A DNA stretch of 30,372 nucleotides from a virus. The stretch covers positions 38,781-69,152 of the IMG/VR virus record IMGVR_UViG_3300002350_000002, one strand, 5' to 3'. The notes under the pieces were generated by a model that was given only the letters and a program-made list of their open reading frames with translations, was not told where the DNA came from and did not search any database. Positions 5,888 to 13,020 of the stretch are shown here, in pieces. Numbering within the stretch: the first letter of the stretch is position 1; the number at the start of each line of letters is the position of its first letter. The position numbers and the translations under genes are program-made.

Positions 5888-6667
5888 ATGTTTAAGAAAT
5901 CGCTGTTTTTTTTGTTGGTGTTTTGCAATTTTACTTTTGCAGAAAACTTTATAATTCCAGAACAAAAAATTATTGGGGCAGAAGTTCCTATTCCATTAGG
6001 TGAGCTTGTAGATTTGTCTATAAGCCCAATTCAATCCGCACCAAAGTTTTTAGTTTCAACCACATACGCATGGAAAGTTTTTGATGGTTATACAGAAAAA
6101 AGAATTCGTAACTATGAAAATGGCGTTTTCTTTGGTTCTGGTATACAAGCAAAAAGACTTAAAGTTATTGTTTCAATAACGCATTTATATGTAGTTAAAG
6201 ATAATGAAAAACTTTTAGAAGCAGCCACTAGAACCAATTTTATTTCAACAGATGTTTTTATTGGCGAACCAGAACCTGATACTCCATCAGAGCCAGAAGT
6301 TGAACCAGAATTTGGAGAGTCAAAATATCAACTTTCTAAATTTGTTTATGATTCTGTTAAAAATATCAAGCTATCAAAAACAGATAAGATAAAACAATCT
6401 ACTGCTATTGCAACATCTTTTGATAGTATGGCTGCTGCTATTGCTGCTGGAACAATTGCAACACTTGAAGACATACTGAAAAAAACCGCAGAATCAAATA
6501 AATTAGCATTAACAAAATCTGGTGGAGATAGAACAAAGTGGGAACCATTATTTACAGAAATACAAGAAAAGCTTTTTGATTTATATAAAACTAGTAAAAT
6601 GCAAACCAAAGAAGATTTTGCTATTGCGTGGAGAGAAATATCATTTGGACTTAAATCAATAAAATAG
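5888..6667 (+). CDS. Secreted protein with signal peptide and acidic Pro-rich linker
   Basis: 259 residues. Residues 1-18 form a typical Sec signal peptide (basic start, hydrophobic core, F-T-F-A before the likely cut); there is no lipobox Cys at the right place. Residues about 20-122 look like a beta-rich domain. A linker of repeated E-P units at about 127-146 (E-P-E-P-D-T-P-S-E-P-E-V) joins this to a C-terminal helical domain with an Ala-rich helix (A-A-A-I-A-A-G-T-I-A). The product would be exported to the periplasm or outside of the infected cell. Family not recognised. AGGA ribosome site precedes the ATG, and the peptidase gene follows by eight bases. Confidence 0.75.
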   Translation: MFKKSLFFLLVFCNFTFAENFIIPEQKIIGAEVPIPLGELVDLSISPIQSAPKFLVSTTYAWKVFDGYTEKRIRNYENGVFFGSGIQAKRLKVIVSITHLYVVKDNEKLLEAATRTNFISTDVFIGEPEPDTPSEPEVEPEFGESKYQLSKFVYDSVKNIKLSKTDKIKQSTAIATSFDSMAAAIAAGTIATLEDILKKTAESNKLALTKSGGDRTKWEPLFTEIQEKLFDLYKTSKMQTKEDFAIAWREISFGLKSIK

Positions 6668-6674
6668 GTGAAAC

Positions 6675-8675
6675 ATGTTTGAACTATCAAAGATTAATGG
6701 TTGGGCAGGAAAAGACAATCCTTCGCTTGTTGAAAGTGAATTTAATTTAATCAAAGATAATGGATCATTTAGAGACTTTAATGTTTATGGCAAAAGCCAA
6801 GACACTAAAGGCAAAAAGATGATGTTGTACGATGTTGTTCGTAAAGTGCTTGGTAATGATACGCCTAATTACGCTCAAGAGATTGGTGATTGTTATGTGG
6901 CTGGTACTAAAGTTTGCATGGCTGATGGTACAGAGAAGAGCGTAGAAGATATATCTGAAGGCGAGTATGTACTAAATCATATAAACCAGCCTAGAAAAGT
7001 TATAGGACTAGTTCGCAAACGATTTACTGGCGATCTAGTTACCTTAAAGGTTAAGGGTTGGAATCGCACTATAACCGCAACAGAAACGCATGATGCTTTA
7101 TTTATGCCATATAATGGATATAGATTTAAATTTGATGGTTTTGGAAAAAAGAAATTTAAAGACTATTCTAAAGGTGACTATCTTCTTTTGCCTTTTGGTG
7201 TTCAATCTTCTGAATATCAACACATAGGTTTTAATGGAAAATCTATAAAGGTAGACGAAAATCTTGCAAGATTTATAGGTTTATATTTAGCAGAAGGTGG
7301 TTGTTCTAAGACTAAAACAGCTATTAATGGCAAATACAATAAAATAACATTTAATTTTAACATTAATGAAGAACTTTTTGCGGAAGAAATTATAGCTATA
7401 ACTAAAAATGTATTTGGATTAGAAGCTAAAAAATATTACCACAAGAAAAAACAAAATGTTTTGTTAGTAGAAATACATAACACAAAATTAGCTACTTTTA
7501 TTAAGCAGTTAATTCCCAATAATACTTACTCTAAAACAGTTCCATCTTTTATATTTAATAGCCCATTAACTGTAAAGATATCTTGCATTAGAGGATGGAT
7601 AGATGGAGATGGTCATTTTAGTAAAAGAGCAACAAGAATTATTGGGGTAACAGCATCTGATTCTTTGTTGAATGATTTATCTAGATTATGCTTGTCTTGT
7701 AATCTTAACCCTATGACATTAAAAAGAAAGAAAGCTTCTCATCAAACTGTTGCTGCTGGTCAAATGGATCTATATGGTTTTGATGCATTATCTTTAGGTG
7801 CATATGAAGTAACCAAACCCAAAGCATTAAAGATCCATAAAACACCATTTGGTTTTGCCAGAAAGATAACTAACATATCTAGAAAACAAGTTTCAGACTT
7901 TCCAGTTTTTTGTATTACTGTTGAAGGAGAGCATACTTTAATAGCTAATGGTATTGCTCAACATAACTGTGTAAGTTTTGGTGCTAAAAATGCTGTTGAA
8001 TACTTAATGGCTACTGAAAAACTTATGAAAGGCGATCACGAAAAATTTGAACCTGTCTTTCCTCCATATCTTTATGGAACAGGAAGAGTTCTTGTTGGTC
8101 GTGGACAATTGAATGGTGAAGATGGTTCTCTTGGGAGTTGGATGGCAGATGCTGTTATTAAATATGGGGTTTTGCGTAGTGGTTTTGATGGTGTTCCTAA
8201 GTATGCTGGAAGCGTAGCTAAAAAATGGGGTGATACGCCAGGACCAGATAAAAAGTTTATTGAAGAAGGAACTAAACACCCAGTAAAGTCTGCTGCGAAA
8301 ATTAAAAGTTGGGATCAATTGGTTGAGGCTATTGTTAATGGATATCCTTGCACCACTGCTAGTGATGTAGGATATGAAATGGAACCAGAATCTGATGGGT
8401 TTCATAGCCAGACAGATAATTGGGGCCATCAAATGTGCTTCATAGGCGTTGATGATAGGGCTAAAGACCCATATGCAATTATTGTTAATAGTTGGGGCGA
8501 TGCTCATGGTCACCTTAAAGACTTTGATACTGGCGATAATCTTCCTATAGGTGTTCTCAGGGTTAGGAAGAAAGATGCTGAAAAACATATTAGGGCTGGC
8601 GAAACTTTTGCATATAGTAATTTTGATGGATTTCCAGAACAGCTAATTGACAAAAAACTATTCATGCTTATATAG
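6675..8675 (+). CDS. Papain-like (C1) cysteine peptidase precursor with intein
   Basis: 666-residue precursor; removal of a 359-residue intein (residues 73-431) would give a 307-residue peptidase. In the spliced protein A-Q-E-I-G-D joins C-V-S-F-G-A, giving the oxyanion Gln and catalytic Cys of a papain-type enzyme. The other catalytic residues are visible downstream: His585 in W-G-H-Q-M-C-F-I-G and Asn605 in I-V-N-S-W-G-D (mature H226 and N246). No signal peptide is seen, although the preceding gene encodes a secreted protein. Likely role is cleavage of a phage or host protein late in infection; the substrate is unknown. The catalytic Cys is also the +1 residue of the intein, so the enzyme cannot be active before splicing. 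Confidence 0.88.
   Translation: MFELSKINGWAGKDNPSLVESEFNLIKDNGSFRDFNVYGKSQDTKGKKMMLYDVVRKVLGNDTPNYAQEIGDCYVAGTKVCMADGTEKSVEDISEGEYVLNHINQPRKVIGLVRKRFTGDLVTLKVKGWNRTITATETHDALFMPYNGYRFKFDGFGKKKFKDYSKGDYLLLPFGVQSSEYQHIGFNGKSIKVDENLARFIGLYLAEGGCSKTKTAINGKYNKITFNFNINEELFAEEIIAITKNVFGLEAKKYYHKKKQNVLLVEIHNTKLATFIKQLIPNNTYSKTVPSFIFNSPLTVKISCIRGWIDGDGHFSKRATRIIGVTASDSLLNDLSRLCLSCNLNPMTLKRKKASHQTVAAGQMDLYGFDALSLGAYEVTKPKALKIHKTPFGFARKITNISRKQVSDFPVFCITVEGEHTLIANGIAQHNCVSFGAKNAVEYLMATEKLMKGDHEKFEPVFPPYLYGTGRVLVGRGQLNGEDGSLGSWMADAVIKYGVLRSGFDGVPKYAGSVAKKWGDTPGPDKKFIEEGTKHPVKSAAKIKSWDQLVEAIVNGYPCTTASDVGYEMEPESDGFHSQTDNWGHQMCFIGVDDRAKDPYAIIVNSWGDAHGHLKDFDTGDNLPIGVLRVRKKDAEKHIRAGETFAYSNFDGFPEQLIDKKLFMLI
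6891..7967 (+). mobile_element. Class 1 intein with LAGLIDADG endonuclease (peptidase host)
   Basis: Encodes 359 residues. It begins C-Y-V-A-G-T-K-V-C-M-A-D-G-T (block A, Cys1), has T-A-T-E-T-H-D-A-L as block B (T136, H139 of the precursor) and ends with I-T-V-E-G-E-H-T-L-I-A-N-G-I-A-Q-H-N before Cys+1 (blocks F and G). These are all residues of a standard class 1 intein. Between them lie two LAGLIDADG motifs, F-I-G-L-Y-L-A-E-G-G and I-R-G-W-I-D-G-D-G-H, with acidic residues E207 and D310/D312 retained, so the homing endonuclease could be active. Insertion is immediately before the peptidase's catalytic Cys codon. Confidence 0.92.
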
Positions 8676-8684
8676 GATTTAAAA

Positions 8685-9155
8685 ATGTCTAAAAAAAAAG
8701 ATGATGAACATTTAAAACAACAAATAGATTACAATGAATTTTTAAATTCAATTAAAGATTTAATCTTAAGCACTAATGCTTATAAAAATCAAAAATTAAA
8801 ACAATTTTCTATAGGAAAAGAATCTTATGATGCCCCACAATCAGCAAGAAATAACGCAAGAAAAGTTTTAGAGTGGAAAGATAAATACGGCAAAGAGTGC
8901 AAAGGCATGACCGCTGTTGGTTGGGCTAGGGCAAGAGACTTAGCTGGAAATGCTATGTTGTCTGCTGACACAGTAAAAAGAATGGCTCAATTTAATAGAC
9001 ACGGATCTAATTATAAAAAAGCAAAATCTAAACCAGAATATAAAACTAAGCCTTGGACTATTCCAGCAGTAGTTGCATGGCTAGGTTGGGGTGGAACATC
9101 TGGTATTGAATGGGCAATGAGAACAAGTCAATCCATTATAAAAAACAAAAAGTAA
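8685..9155 (+). CDS. Conserved phage protein with R-H and W-G-G motifs
   Basis: 156 residues. From about residue 49 it has a compact motif set: A-R-N-N-A-R-K-V-L-E-W-K, then G-M-T-A-V-G-W-A-R-A-R-D-L-A, L-S-A-D-T-V-K-R-M-A-Q-F-N-R-H, and near the end W-L-G-W-G-G-T-S-G-I-E-W-A. I recognise this arrangement from phage proteins where it occurs alone or as a domain beside head or modification functions, but its biochemical role is not known to me. It follows the peptidase gene by nine bases, so it could be a substrate or partner of the peptidase; that is only inference from position. Confidence 0.65.
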   Translation: MSKKKDDEHLKQQIDYNEFLNSIKDLILSTNAYKNQKLKQFSIGKESYDAPQSARNNARKVLEWKDKYGKECKGMTAVGWARARDLAGNAMLSADTVKRMAQFNRHGSNYKKAKSKPEYKTKPWTIPAVVAWLGWGGTSGIEWAMRTSQSIIKNKK

Positions 9156-9158
9156 ATC

Positions 9159-9302
9159 ATGTTAAACTCAGTGCTTTTTTTATTGTTTAATCAAACTATA
9201 AGCAAAGAGCAATTTATATTAATAGAAAAAGACCCAATTTCATTTTCTAAACTAATAGAAGAAATTAAAAAAACAGTAAAACAACAACACTGTTTAACCT
9301 GA
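9159..9302 (+). CDS. Small hypothetical protein, 47 residues
   Basis: Open frame starting M-L-N-S-V-L-F-L-L-F with TGA at 9300-9302; the final A is shared with an ATG of the next reading frame. It starts three bases after the preceding stop and fills the otherwise empty stretch between two genes. The N-terminus is hydrophobic but too short for a sure membrane span; the C-terminal half is Lys-rich. No good Shine-Dalgarno is seen, so it would depend on re-initiation. Support is spacing and coupling only. Confidence 0.45.
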   Translation: MLNSVLFLLFNQTISKEQFILIEKDPISFSKLIEEIKKTVKQQHCLT

Positions 9303-9316
9303 TGGAGAAAAAAATA

Positions 9317-9664
9317 ATGCGGTCGCATGATAAAATAAAATCAATTTTACAAAAATCAGAAAAAATAAAAAATTACGATGCTATTGGAATCATAACAATC
9401 ATTATGTTGGTTGGATTTATTGTTGATGGAATTAGCATACTTAAGTTTTGCACTTCTAAAAAAGGTGTTGCTTTAATAATTAAAAATGGCGGTCCTTTAG
9501 TAAGAATGTTTATAAGAAGAAATTTATACAATAAAATAATAAAAGCAAATGTTTCAGAAGAACATGCTAAGATCATATCTGATACAATAGTCGAGTTGAT
9601 GCAATCTTTGTCTGTTGATGAAATAGTTTCGCTTTTAGATATGGTTTACAATGAAAATAGTTAA
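9317..9664 (+). CDS. Small membrane protein
   Basis: 115 residues from the ATG at 9317, chosen because GGAGA lies at 9304-9308 with good spacing; a second in-frame ATG at 9302 overlaps the previous stop and would add five residues. A hydrophobic helix at about residues 22-42 (I-G-I-I-T-I-I-M-L-V-G-F-I-V) predicts one membrane span. A basic segment (I-R-R-N-L-Y-N-K-I-I-K) and an amphipathic acidic C-terminus follow. Function unknown; it closes the putative envelope cassette and overlaps the next gene by 14 bases. Confidence 0.65.
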   Translation: MRSHDKIKSILQKSEKIKNYDAIGIITIIMLVGFIVDGISILKFCTSKKGVALIIKNGGPLVRMFIRRNLYNKIIKANVSEEHAKIISDTIVELMQSLSVDEIVSLLDMVYNENS

Positions 9665-10541
9665 GGCTACATATGGCCCAAAAGATGTAACGGAGTATGT
9701 CGCAAGTGTTTTCAAAGACGATAGTTTAAATATTTATGTTTCCAACGCCATTTTTGGCGACACAAATCATGGCGTATTAAAAAAGTTAATTGTTGAATTT
9801 GACGATGGCTCTAAACTAGAAACAAATGAAAATGAATTTTTAATTTATCCAAAAATTTTTGATGAAAGAATTGGTATTTTTTATACAAACAACAATGATA
9901 CAAGAAAAGAAAAAGCTTTATATGCCAGTTTAAAAAGTTTGGCTATTTCATCAGAAAAAAAAGCCAGAATAATTACATCTGTATGGAATAAAATACCAGA
10001 AAATCCATTTTGCGAAATAATTTCTCAAACCAAGAATAGTAATCATTTAAATCAAGTTTTACAAATATTGCATTTGCTTTATTTTGTAAGAAAAAATTCA
10101 ACAAATGTCAAATATGTTAGTTTTTTAGAACATGATTGCCTTTATCCAGAAGGATATTTTGAATATGATGATTTTGAATGCGATTCTATATCAAACACTA
10201 ATTATATAGGATTGTGTTCTTCTGGTTGGCAACCTAAAAATGGTGCAGCAAGGGCAACATCTCAAGTGACCATGAAGTTTACTAGTGCCATTAAACATTT
10301 TGAAAACATATTTCCAAATGCGTTATTGAAAAACTCTGGAAGTTTAGAGCCTTGGTATTCAAAAGAAGCTGCTTTTACACCATTAAACTGGAAAAACAAA
10401 GATTGGTTCTGTAAAAACCCATCAGTTCACATAAATCACGGTTATGCATTCACATCACATTTTCAAACTTTTCAAAAAGTTTTTTCTGAATCAAATGAAT
10501 ATTGGGGTGATTATTCAGAATATGCTTATCTTTTTTCTTAA
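9651..10541 (+). CDS. Putative GT-A-like glycosyltransferase with beta N-domain
   Basis: 296 residues. Residues about 1-68 (Y-G-P-K-D-V-T-E-Y-V, then V-S-N-A-I-F-G-D, V-L-K-K-L-I-V-E-F) resemble the small beta domain of the DUF3395 type found attached to various proteins. The remainder looks like a glycosyltransferase: a nucleotide-binding first strand region (I-G-I-F-Y-T-N-N-N), and F-L-E-H-D-C-L-Y-P-E-G-Y-F at about 162-174, where E-H-D may stand in for the metal-binding D-x-D of GT-A enzymes. Late His residues (H-I-N-H-G-Y) could complete the site. Donor and acceptor unknown. Moderately sure of the transferase class, less of the N-domain name. Confidence 0.55.
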   Translation: MKIVKATYGPKDVTEYVASVFKDDSLNIYVSNAIFGDTNHGVLKKLIVEFDDGSKLETNENEFLIYPKIFDERIGIFYTNNNDTRKEKALYASLKSLAISSEKKARIITSVWNKIPENPFCEIISQTKNSNHLNQVLQILHLLYFVRKNSTNVKYVSFLEHDCLYPEGYFEYDDFECDSISNTNYIGLCSSGWQPKNGAARATSQVTMKFTSAIKHFENIFPNALLKNSGSLEPWYSKEAAFTPLNWKNKDWFCKNPSVHINHGYAFTSHFQTFQKVFSESNEYWGDYSEYAYLFS

Positions 10542-10728
10542 TTTTTCTACAAAAAACATTTGATTAAAAGTCACAAAATAGTCTTGCCACAATAAAAAAA
10601 ATAAGTAAGATTTTGATCTGTCTTACCTACAATCATGGGTGTATTTATTTCCGCTGGTAATCGCCAGCATTACATTCCTTTAGAGTTCCGCTTATCCTTG
10701 CGATAGCAGGGCAGATGGAGTTTTTTTC
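10542..10728 (+). promoter_or_regulatory. Structured leader of the ribonucleotide reductase gene
   Basis: The longest non-coding stretch of the window, 187 bases. Stem 1: 10605-10610 with 10621-10626 (6 pairs, 10-base loop). Stem 2: 10653-10657 with 10664-10668 (5 G-C-rich pairs, 6-base loop). Stem 3: 10690-10696 with 10702-10707 (6 pairs, one bulged T, 5-base loop). The loop of stem 1 (ATCTG, 10616-10620) is complementary to CAGAT at 10712-10716, immediately before the GGAG ribosome site at 10717-10720, so a pseudoknot could control translation. A structured RNA named for its place before nrdJ genes has been described from comparative genomics; whether this is that motif I cannot test. It lacks a cobalamin-riboswitch B12 box. 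Confidence 0.5.
10641..10648 (+). promoter_or_regulatory. GTATTTAT motif, copy 3 of 3 (possible promoter element)
   Basis: Third intergenic copy of the octamer, 88 bases before the reductase ATG and between stems 1 and 2 of the leader. If it is a promoter, transcripts from it would lack stem 1; this conflicts with a role for stem 1 in the same transcript. Confidence 0.2.
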
Positions 10729-13020
10729 ATGTCTATTAAAGAATTACAAAAATATACGGCTGTTTCCAAATACGCTAGATGGATTGAATCTGAAAAAAGA
10801 AGGGAAACTTGGGATGAAAGCGTACAAAGAATAAAAGATATGATGATAGAAGTTCATCCATCTTTGCGTAAAGATATTGAAGAACATTATGAAATGATCA
10901 GAGATCAAAAAATATTGGGTTCACAAAGAGCATTACAGTTTGGCGGTAAGCCAATTATTAAACATAATGCAAGAATATTTAATTGTTCTGCTAGTTATTG
11001 CGACAGATTACGATTTTTCCAAGAATGTTTTTATTTATTGCTTTGCGGGTCTGGAACTGGGTTTAGTGTACAAAAACATCATGTTGAATTGTTGCCAAAG
11101 TTCTCATCTACTAGATTAAACACAGAAACATGTTGTTATGAGCATCATATATATAGGGTTGAAGATTCAATCGAAGGTTGGGCAGATGCTCTTGGTGTTC
11201 TTCTTTCTTCATATTTTGAAACTCCAATAAAAGGATTTGAAAGATACAAAGATATTGCGGTTGGATTTAGTTATCAAGACATAAGAGAAAAGGGTGCTCC
11301 TTTAAGTTGTGGCATAGGCAATGCCCCAGGTTATCAACCACTAGAAAAAGCTTTAGAAAAGACTAGGGAATTACTCGATAGATGTATTGCAAATGGGCAA
11401 ACACAATTAAGAACAATAGATGCATTCGATATAGTTATGTTTGCTGCTGATGCTGTTATTTCTGGCGGTGTTCGTAGATCTGCAACTATAGCCTTATTCT
11501 CTGCCGATGATGAATTAATGATCAATGCAAAGACTGGCGATTGGTATTTCACTAACCCTCAAAGAGCTAGGGCAAACATCTCTGCATTACTTCATAGAAA
11601 ATATACTTCCAAAGAAGTATTTGAAAATCTATTTAAAGCAACAAAAGAATTTGGTGAACCAGGATTTTTCTTTGCCGATTTTTATGATGCATTATGTAAT
11701 CCATGTTGTGAAATATCATGGATAACTAAACATTTCTTCAAGAAAAACAGTCCAGAACTAGCTGAGGCTTTGTCATTATATGAAGGACCAATAACAACAA
11801 AAGAGTCATGCAAAGATGACATGCCAGAAGATGAGGTCGGTCTTTCTGGTTGGGGATTCTGCAATTTATCAACTATTAATGGAAAAACAATAACTTCAGA
11901 AGAAGACTTCTACCAAAGGTGTGCTGCTGCTGCCTTTATTGGTACATTACAAGCATCTTTTACCAATTTCCCATACTTGGGTCATGTTACAGAACTTATT
12001 GCTCGTAAAGAGGCATTATTGGGCGTTTCAATTAATGGTATGCAACATCATCCTAAAATACTATTAAACCCAACAATTCAACAAAATGGAGCAAAAATAG
12101 TTAAAGATACAAACAAAAAGTACGCAGAAATATTAAACATAAGTCCTGCTGCAAGAACAACTTGCGTAAAGCCAGAGGGTAATTCTGCTGCTTTATTAGG
12201 GTCTGCTTCTGGTATTCATCCAGATCATTCTAAAAGATATTTTAGAATTGTTCAAGCTAATCAGATGGAATCTCCTTACCAGCACTTTAAAAGCATTAAT
12301 CCTCAAGCATGTGAAGAATCAGTATGGTCATCAAATAAAACGGATGATTGCATAAGGTTTTGTGTACAAAGCCAAGATGGAACAGTGCTTAAGGAAAACA
12401 TAGATGCTATATCTATGCTTGATGATGTTTTATCAACCTATAAAAATTGGGTTGTTGCTGGAAAAAATGAACATCTTTGCGTTAGAAAAGAGTTAAATCA
12501 CAATGTTTCTAATACAATACATGTAAAAGATGATGAGTGGGATAAGGTAAAAGAGTACATTTACAATCATCGTGCAGAGCTTGCTGGAATATCTCTCATA
12601 GCTTCAACTGGAGATAAAGACTATAATCAAGCTCCATTTACAGCAGTTTATTCAATTGAAGAACAAATAGCTAATTGGGGTTATGAAGCCACATCTAAGG
12701 CATATGAAACTTACCCAAAATTTTCTGAATATAATTTTAATTCTTTGTGGGATGCTTGTTCATGTGTTCTTGGTTATTTTGAACCAAAAGATGAAAAACA
12801 AAAAACTTGGAAAATTATGGTGCAAAAATATGCAGATGAATTTTTTTCTTCTGATGTTAAGTACGCTACTTATGCACTTAAAGATGCTTATAATTTAGAT
12901 TTATGGAACAAGCTAATAAATAATTATTCTGATGTTAATTATTTAAATGCTGTTGAAGTTAATTCTACAATAGATATTCAAGGAGAACTTGCTTGTGCTG
13001 GTGGAGCTTGTTTAATATAA
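10729..13020 (+). CDS. nrdJ: Adenosylcobalamin-dependent ribonucleoside-triphosphate reductase
   Basis: 763 residues, the monomeric class II type. It reduces NTPs to dNTPs with a thiyl radical generated from adenosylcobalamin, without needing oxygen. Visible sites: N-C-S with C86 (first redox Cys), Y-L-L-L-C-G-S-G-T-G-F-S-V-Q, I-S-G-G-V-R-R-S-A-T, N-P-C-C-E-I with C326 as thiyl Cys and E328 as catalytic Glu, C378 in G-F-C-N-L as second redox Cys, and the C-terminal pair C756/C761 in C-A-G-G-A-C. Thiyl and redox Cys are 52 residues apart, far more than in the Lactobacillus enzyme (11), a loop extension I believe is common in phage-type members. GGAG at 10717 sets the start. Expression is probably governed by the structured leader. 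Confidence 0.93.
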   Translation: MSIKELQKYTAVSKYARWIESEKRRETWDESVQRIKDMMIEVHPSLRKDIEEHYEMIRDQKILGSQRALQFGGKPIIKHNARIFNCSASYCDRLRFFQECFYLLLCGSGTGFSVQKHHVELLPKFSSTRLNTETCCYEHHIYRVEDSIEGWADALGVLLSSYFETPIKGFERYKDIAVGFSYQDIREKGAPLSCGIGNAPGYQPLEKALEKTRELLDRCIANGQTQLRTIDAFDIVMFAADAVISGGVRRSATIALFSADDELMINAKTGDWYFTNPQRARANISALLHRKYTSKEVFENLFKATKEFGEPGFFFADFYDALCNPCCEISWITKHFFKKNSPELAEALSLYEGPITTKESCKDDMPEDEVGLSGWGFCNLSTINGKTITSEEDFYQRCAAAAFIGTLQASFTNFPYLGHVTELIARKEALLGVSINGMQHHPKILLNPTIQQNGAKIVKDTNKKYAEILNISPAARTTCVKPEGNSAALLGSASGIHPDHSKRYFRIVQANQMESPYQHFKSINPQACEESVWSSNKTDDCIRFCVQSQDGTVLKENIDAISMLDDVLSTYKNWVVAGKNEHLCVRKELNHNVSNTIHVKDDEWDKVKEYIYNHRAELAGISLIASTGDKDYNQAPFTAVYSIEEQIANWGYEATSKAYETYPKFSEYNFNSLWDACSCVLGYFEPKDEKQKTWKIMVQKYADEFFSSDVKYATYALKDAYNLDLWNKLINNYSDVNYLNAVEVNSTIDIQGELACAGGACLI

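Follow-up and report, generated by a model that had tools for sequence, protein, structure and literature searches.

The window analysed here, a stretch of 30,372 nucleotides, lies within a 111.6-kb virus record (IMGVR_UViG_3300002350_000002). On its plus strand, at positions 10729-13020, it carries nrdJ, the predicted gene of a 763-residue ribonucleotide reductase of the class II type. The product matched the ribonucleotide reductase family phrog_367 with an E value of 3.7e-91, and its score with the Pfam model RNR_Alpha was 22.4 bits, below the cut-off of 26.4. The assignment to class II is taken from similarity to phage relatives annotated as nrdJ or adenosylcobalamin-dependent reductase, which are at best 40-42% identical. 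Reductases of this class require a B12 cofactor, which many bacteria are unable to make.

A preliminary description of this DNA had reported a structured leader in a 187-base gap before the gene. The gap was confirmed between the preceding reading frame and the nrdJ start (10542-10728), and the foldable hairpins noted in it were recovered by single-strand folding. In comparison with dinucleotide shuffles, the fold of 10600-10725 gave z = -2.39 (3 of 200 shuffles as stable), and that of the whole gap with the first codons (10542-10740) gave z = -1.75 (10 of 200). A Shine-Dalgarno-like GGAG precedes the start at 10717-10720 on the plus strand, and the 14 aligned leaders described below have GGAG or GGGG. 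As far as the leader is conserved and has a predicted structure the earlier proposal stood; the pseudoknot that it contained, the identity with the RNA family RF03034 and the role of hairpin 1 in a switch did not.

Distribution and conservation of the nrdJ leader

The scan of viral contigs for NrdJ yielded 41 loci, of which 8 lacked the 5' end of the gene and 33 were usable. The leader was present in 26 of these and absent from 7, namely L015, with 86% NrdJ identity, L039, with 45%, and five loci with 72%; when the comparison was confined to loci with the gene's 5' end and an NrdJ at least 85% identical, it was present in 26 of 27. The NrdJ relatives in genome contigs comprised six loci with 25-26% identity. 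After removal of duplicates, and with the window counted, 14 distinct leaders were aligned; L186 was left out. Two non-overlapping exact patterns derived from the leader, one covering the dyad and the other hairpin H2 (both described below), each identified one and the same set of 27 viral contigs, and every match was at nrdJ. L186 supplies the 27th contig of the set, and there too the match precedes nrdJ.

Other leader-derived patterns were less exclusive. The H2 pattern GGTGTATTTATNNCNGCTGG matched 72 stretches, of which 24 were contigs already in the nrdJ set, one was the nrdJ leader of L186 and 47 were other sequences; 43 of these 47 are open over the translated part, in the frame reading G-V-F-I-x-A-G. 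The pattern CCGCTGGTAATCGCCAG gave 24 matches, 20 of them in nrdJ contigs and 4 in GC-rich sequence elsewhere.

Among annotated phages, searches with the leader DNA gave 12 weak matches, the best with E=0.2 and none covering 80% of the query; E. coli genomes gave none, and one exact core pattern had no match in 84,980 bacterial and archaeal species genomes. The covariance model R1 detected the window leader once in the 111.6-kb record, with no further copy. R1 was also run over 75 sources, made up of the window, L186 and 73 loci that were either more distant or leaderless (the distant ones drawn from the best 80 of 590). Apart from the window and L186 it returned a single match, at E=2.7, and none of the 73 loci rose above chance. 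The portions of the literature covered by our search contained no account of this phage leader. Judged by these sequence comparisons, the leader of nrdJ is real and clade-specific.

Conservation was assessed with 13 of the 14 leaders, L041 being omitted on account of its incomplete gene. In the segment 10635-10683, 38 of 49 columns were invariant, compared with 65 of 201 fourfold-degenerate nrdJ sites (p=9.3e-9), and in 10600-10625 the count was 20 of 26 against the same sites (p=1.6e-5); these p-values are rough, since the Fisher tests take columns as independent. The linker at 10626-10634 (2 of 9 columns invariant) and the stretch 10590-10599 (2 of 10) were not conserved. Hairpin H3 proved conserved only with L038 excluded: 29 of 37 columns were then invariant, as against 87 of 215 fourfold sites, and 13 of 37 with L038 included (p=0.44). 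When eight more distant phages were compared, the identity in H2 was 0.86-0.94, while the other gaps examined showed 0.60-0.82 or were barely alignable. The strong conservation of the leader sequence points to a function there.

In the 150 bases before nrdJ, L015 and L024 have another leader, which is partly common to both; it contains TTGCCA, a spacer of 17 bases and TAAAAA, with a GCCATC/GATGGT dyad in the spacer (spacing determined by eye). Leaders seem to be exchanged between phages, because the NrdJ of L015 is 86% identical and yet its leader differs.

A promoter-like site and its dyad

Upstream of the folded region, the plus strand carries a -35-like hexamer TTGCCA (10584-10589) and, after a spacer of 16 bases, a -10-like hexamer TAAGAT (10606-10611), the latter within the conserved block 10600-10625. 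The TTG and the spacer of 16 were found in 14 of 14 leaders; TTGNNN stands exactly 16 bases 5' of TAAGAT in six of them, of TAAGAA in six and of TAAAAA in two, and the last T of a sigma-70-type -10 element is present in 6 of 14. Ungapped alignment showed the TTG to be the sole run of at least two invariant columns among the 73 that precede the conserved block; it was reproduced by none of 20,000 random circular shifts of six group representatives, a figure that serves as a guide only, the sequences being related. A strict sigma-70-like scan reported the site in the window and not in L016. In 10400-10800 it is the only sigma-70-like site, and shuffles of the region average 1.7; over the first 16 kb such sites number 68, versus 80.6 in shuffles, and are thus no commoner than in shuffled sequence. 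Across the record, TTG-16-TAAGAW occurred 6 times, versus 6 in the control, which is the chance level. A second exact AATAAGTAAGAT, likewise preceded by a TTG at this spacing, is located at 101898-101909 (minus strand) within a long reading frame.

Other readings of these motifs were tried and rejected. The regulon reading of AATAAGTAAGAW gave 6 sites in the record and 6 in the control, and that of the dyad 7 sites against 12 in the control, the other six needing 3 mismatches. A late-promoter reading of the antisense octamer TATAAATA gave 10 forward and 17 reverse occurrences, the same as the reversed control, and the window leader has no exact copy of it.

The -10-like hexamer and the expected transcription start are overlapped by a 24-bp dyad, TAAG-TA-AGAT-TTTG-ATCT-GT-CTTA (10602-10625), which had been described as hairpin 1 of an RNA switch. 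In the form TAAG-TA-AGAW....WTCT-GT-CTTA, one symmetrical change from T-A to A-T occurs in 5 of the 14 rows, and the same pair is unpaired in 3; such a change is equally compatible with a palindrome in DNA and with a stem in RNA. No two-sided change was seen when hairpin 1 was treated as a simple stem of 6 bp. Use of this promoter would place the start of transcription near 10616-10620 and so leave the 5' arm of hairpin 1 out of the RNA. Since the -10-like hexamer falls within this arm, hairpin 1 is probably a promoter dyad and not an element of the RNA, and its part in a switch found no support, given its overlap with the conserved promoter-like site. A more general caution is that a hairpin assigned to RNA solely from its sequence can turn out to be a promoter dyad.

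The switch itself had been envisaged as a pseudoknot, in which the loop ATCTG of hairpin 1 (10616-10620) pairs with CAGAT (10712-10716), adjoining the GGAG at 10717-10720, and hides the ribosome site. Both motifs are indeed at these positions and form an exact five-base complement in the window. All five pairs can form in 7 of the 14 distinct leaders (in one via a G-U pair), that is, in the window group and in L038/L041, and 78.6% of cells pair in this register, above the 28.6-61.4% of six slid registers. However, the pairing is incomplete in the other half of the leaders (four pairs of five in one, three in four and two in two), no two-sided change was detected among the 14, and all of the 500 shuffles reached the observed covariation score. 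The match is also no more than expected by chance: a complement of at least five bases to the loop 10612-10620 arose in 26% of 2000 letter-shuffled downstream leaders, or in 6.9% with the comparison limited to the last 27 nt. Moreover, the 5' partner lies at the expected transcription start, where hairpin 1 could not form. The pseudoknot was rejected on these grounds, and we regard it as very improbable.

Predicted hairpins H2 and H3 before the nrdJ start

Downstream of the dyad, two predicted hairpins occupy the plus strand. The first, H2 (10637-10678), consists of an outer stem GGGUGUA/UACAUUCC, an asymmetric internal loop of 9 nt and 2 nt with an invariant UUUAU, and an apical hairpin GCUGGU-AAUC-GCCAGC, the loop of which is also invariant. 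Its pairs are nearly invariant, and the outer stem shows no variation except a two-base gap in L038/L041; pairs that do not vary are silent for or against an RNA structure. The second, H3 (10686-10720), is a two-part hairpin, predicted by folding, in which the outer stem pairs UUCC with the Shine-Dalgarno GGAG. Two of its five inner pairs vary by unpaired cells only and two by one-sided changes, and one changes from G-C to A-U in L038/L041, the one two-sided change in this hairpin. A scan for an intrinsic terminator or attenuator at H3 found none.

The covariation check on homologous leaders that had been suggested at the outset yielded little. The RNAalifold covariation term was -0.14, and two-sided changes were observed in 2 of 33 pairs, none of them in H2, a count that was reached by 279 of 500 shuffles. 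Taken as a whole, the 33-pair structure has 96.5% of its cells paired (0 of 500 shuffles), and its 7 two-sided cells and covariation score were reached by 1 of 500 shuffles, although shared descent can exceed this control.

The predicted accessibility of positions -16 to -6 at nrdJ was 0.21; of the 32 starts in the window, only two had lower values. The same region was unpaired with a probability of 0.07-0.33 in 11 of 11 element-bearing leaders tested; the values for the leaderless loci L024 and L015 were 0.71 and 0.32, respectively. When the upstream leader was shuffled in nine element-bearing leaders, 19-83 of 100 shuffles paired the Shine-Dalgarno sequence at least as much, and 3-24 of 100 reached as low a folding energy; in L009, L011 and L012 an upstream GGAA was taken as the Shine-Dalgarno sequence in this test. 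Sequestration of the ribosome site, as modelled, is therefore consistent across the clade, but selection for it is not established, because shuffled upstream leaders pair the Shine-Dalgarno sequence as much.

Comparison with known RNA families gave no assignment. According to PMC8079986, RF03034 is the accession of the nrdJ RNA motif, which likewise lies before nrdJ genes, as in the case of Streptomyces lividans. The present feature agrees with this motif in its location, upstream of the nrdJ gene at 10729, but fails its model, the gathering score of which is 40.3 bits. RF03034 had no match at E<=10 in the 111.6-kb record, and none over the cut-off in 14 control genomes, so that this search had no positive control; cmscan against Rfam, run on the window and on 8 related loci, found nothing at the gathering score, and no RF03034 match at E<=10 in a 301-base stretch. 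The suggestion that this might be the known nrdJ motif was thus not borne out. Regulation of a B12-linked gene from its leader would be alike in the cobalamin families, but their models were also unmatched: Cobalamin (RF00174) had no match at E<=10 in a search that exceeded the cut-off in 8 of 14 control genomes, and AdoCbl-II (RF01689) had none at E<=10, with matches over the cut-off in 1 of 14. These results agree with the earlier view that the leader is not a cobalamin riboswitch. Matches to Rfam at E<=10 in three leaders were dismissed, being chiefly eukaryotic snoRNA and lncRNA families, all far below gathering; the other sub-gathering matches in these leaders were mir-1422, rox2, Plastid-clpP and the hsp17 thermometer.

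Proposed regulation, alternatives and surrounding region

The explanation that we favour, and to which we give nearly an even chance of being right, is that nrdJ has its own promoter and a 5' UTR of about 110 nt, in which the control hairpin H2 lies upstream of an occluded ribosome site. Transcription from a putative sigma-70-type promoter (-35 at 10584-10589, -10 at 10606-10611) would start near 10616-10620. The nearly invariant bulged hairpin H2 (10637-10678), acting as RNA, would be the recognition site, and H3 may fold the ribosome-binding site away; a phage or host protein, or a small ligand, could bind H2 and, through a presumed coupling of H2 with H3, set the amount of NrdJ. This explanation is favoured by the low predicted accessibility of the ribosome site in all 11 leaders tested, by the conservation of H2 beyond that of fourfold sites, by the constant spacing from TTG to TAAGAW and by the restriction of the leader to nrdJ in the collections searched. 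Against it stand the scarce covariation, with none in H2, so that H2 as RNA is not proved; a pairing of the Shine-Dalgarno sequence no stronger than with a shuffled upstream leader; a weak -10 element, the last T of which is missing in 8 of 14 leaders, and a chance-level frequency of TTG-16-TAAGAW in the record; and L015, which manages without this leader in spite of an 86% identical NrdJ. The principal uncertainty is the level, RNA or DNA, at which H2 works.

Translational operators of phages, for example those to which T4 gp43 or RegA binds, are located near the ribosome site of a nucleotide or replication gene. The present leader can be likened to them in that it also lies by such a gene and is confined to one phage group; it differs in that H2 ends about 40 nt upstream of the Shine-Dalgarno sequence and in that the binder here is putative. 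More specifically, H2 could be the recognition element of an undescribed clade-specific RNA regulator that tunes the class II (B12-type) reductase during infection, responding to a phage protein, a host protein, a cofactor or a nucleotide, a possibility that we consider doubtful. A leader that is kept almost letter for letter and occurs nowhere else in the collections searched is a small, testable handle on the timing of dNTP supply in phages.

The same conservation could reflect a constraint on DNA, with the 24-bp dyad and the H2 palindrome serving as operators for a regulator of the promoter and the RNA folds being incidental. The dyad spans both the -10 and the expected start, the palindrome survives the symmetrical change seen in 5 of 14 rows, and the pairs of H2 are invariant instead of covarying, all of which this reading would explain. 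However, the 111.6-kb record holds no second exact copy of the dyad, its 7 sites are fewer than the 12 of the control, and H2 keeps its unpaired bases mainly on one side, unlike a symmetric operator; we therefore hold operators of this kind to be rather unlikely. A metabolite riboswitch of a class outside Rfam, sensing for example a cobamide or a dNTP, would suit the position before a class II reductase, the one-sided and nearly invariant internal loop of H2 and the hairpin over the Shine-Dalgarno sequence. The restriction to one phage clade, the absence of the exact core pattern from the 84,980 species genomes, the small core of about 42 nt and the little covariation make such a riboswitch improbable.

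A further alternative concerns translation of the leader itself. A possible upstream ORF of 23 codons, a weak candidate suggested by codon conservation, lies at 10635-10706 on the plus strand, overlapping H2 and H3, and its peptide, MGVFI[SFP]AGNRQ..., might control H3 and nrdJ. An ATG or GTG start is present in 14 of 14 aligned leaders, among the first 11 codons all but codon 6 (S, F or P) are kept, and several differences fall at third positions (Ile as ATT, ATA or ATC). Nevertheless, the frame is lost after codon 11 in L038/L041, the length varies (20, 23, 34 or 49 amino acids) and in L017 the frame is continuous with nrdJ, and the 20 bases before the start have no purine-rich site. The best tblastn match in phages had E=1, and the third positions of GGT GTA GCT GGT CGC are all invariant, which indicates more than coding. 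Control by a leader peptide accordingly appears decidedly improbable. In L017 the upstream ORF, about 96 bases before nrdJ, is in frame with it, and NrdJ could thereby gain an N-terminal extension of 32 residues.

Several features of the surrounding region were observed in addition. The nrdJ gene of L256 (4729-8109), on the contig of L038, is interrupted in frame, between NPC and CEIS, by an intein-like insert of about 364 codons, which is absent from the window nrdJ; L041 has an insert of like size, judged from a match longer than its residues need. In the window, the 666-residue frame at 6675-8675 contains intein-type domains and a LAGLIDADG domain, with PF14528 and PF05203 over the cut-off and PF14890 below it; only 884-928 of its 2001 bases could be aligned in 9 of 10 relatives, and all of them in L256. 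The stretch 5888-13020 of the window is closer to distant phages than its neighbours are, which suggests recombination. The fourfold-site identity of nrdJ to the distant phages is 0.64-0.73, versus 0.41-0.65 in those flanking genes that offer 40 or more comparable sites; the part 5888-9155 is almost as remote from the close relative L225 as from the majority of the distant phages. Another gap between frames, at 9156-9301, aligns fully in 10 of 10 relatives, with an identity of 0.71-0.83.
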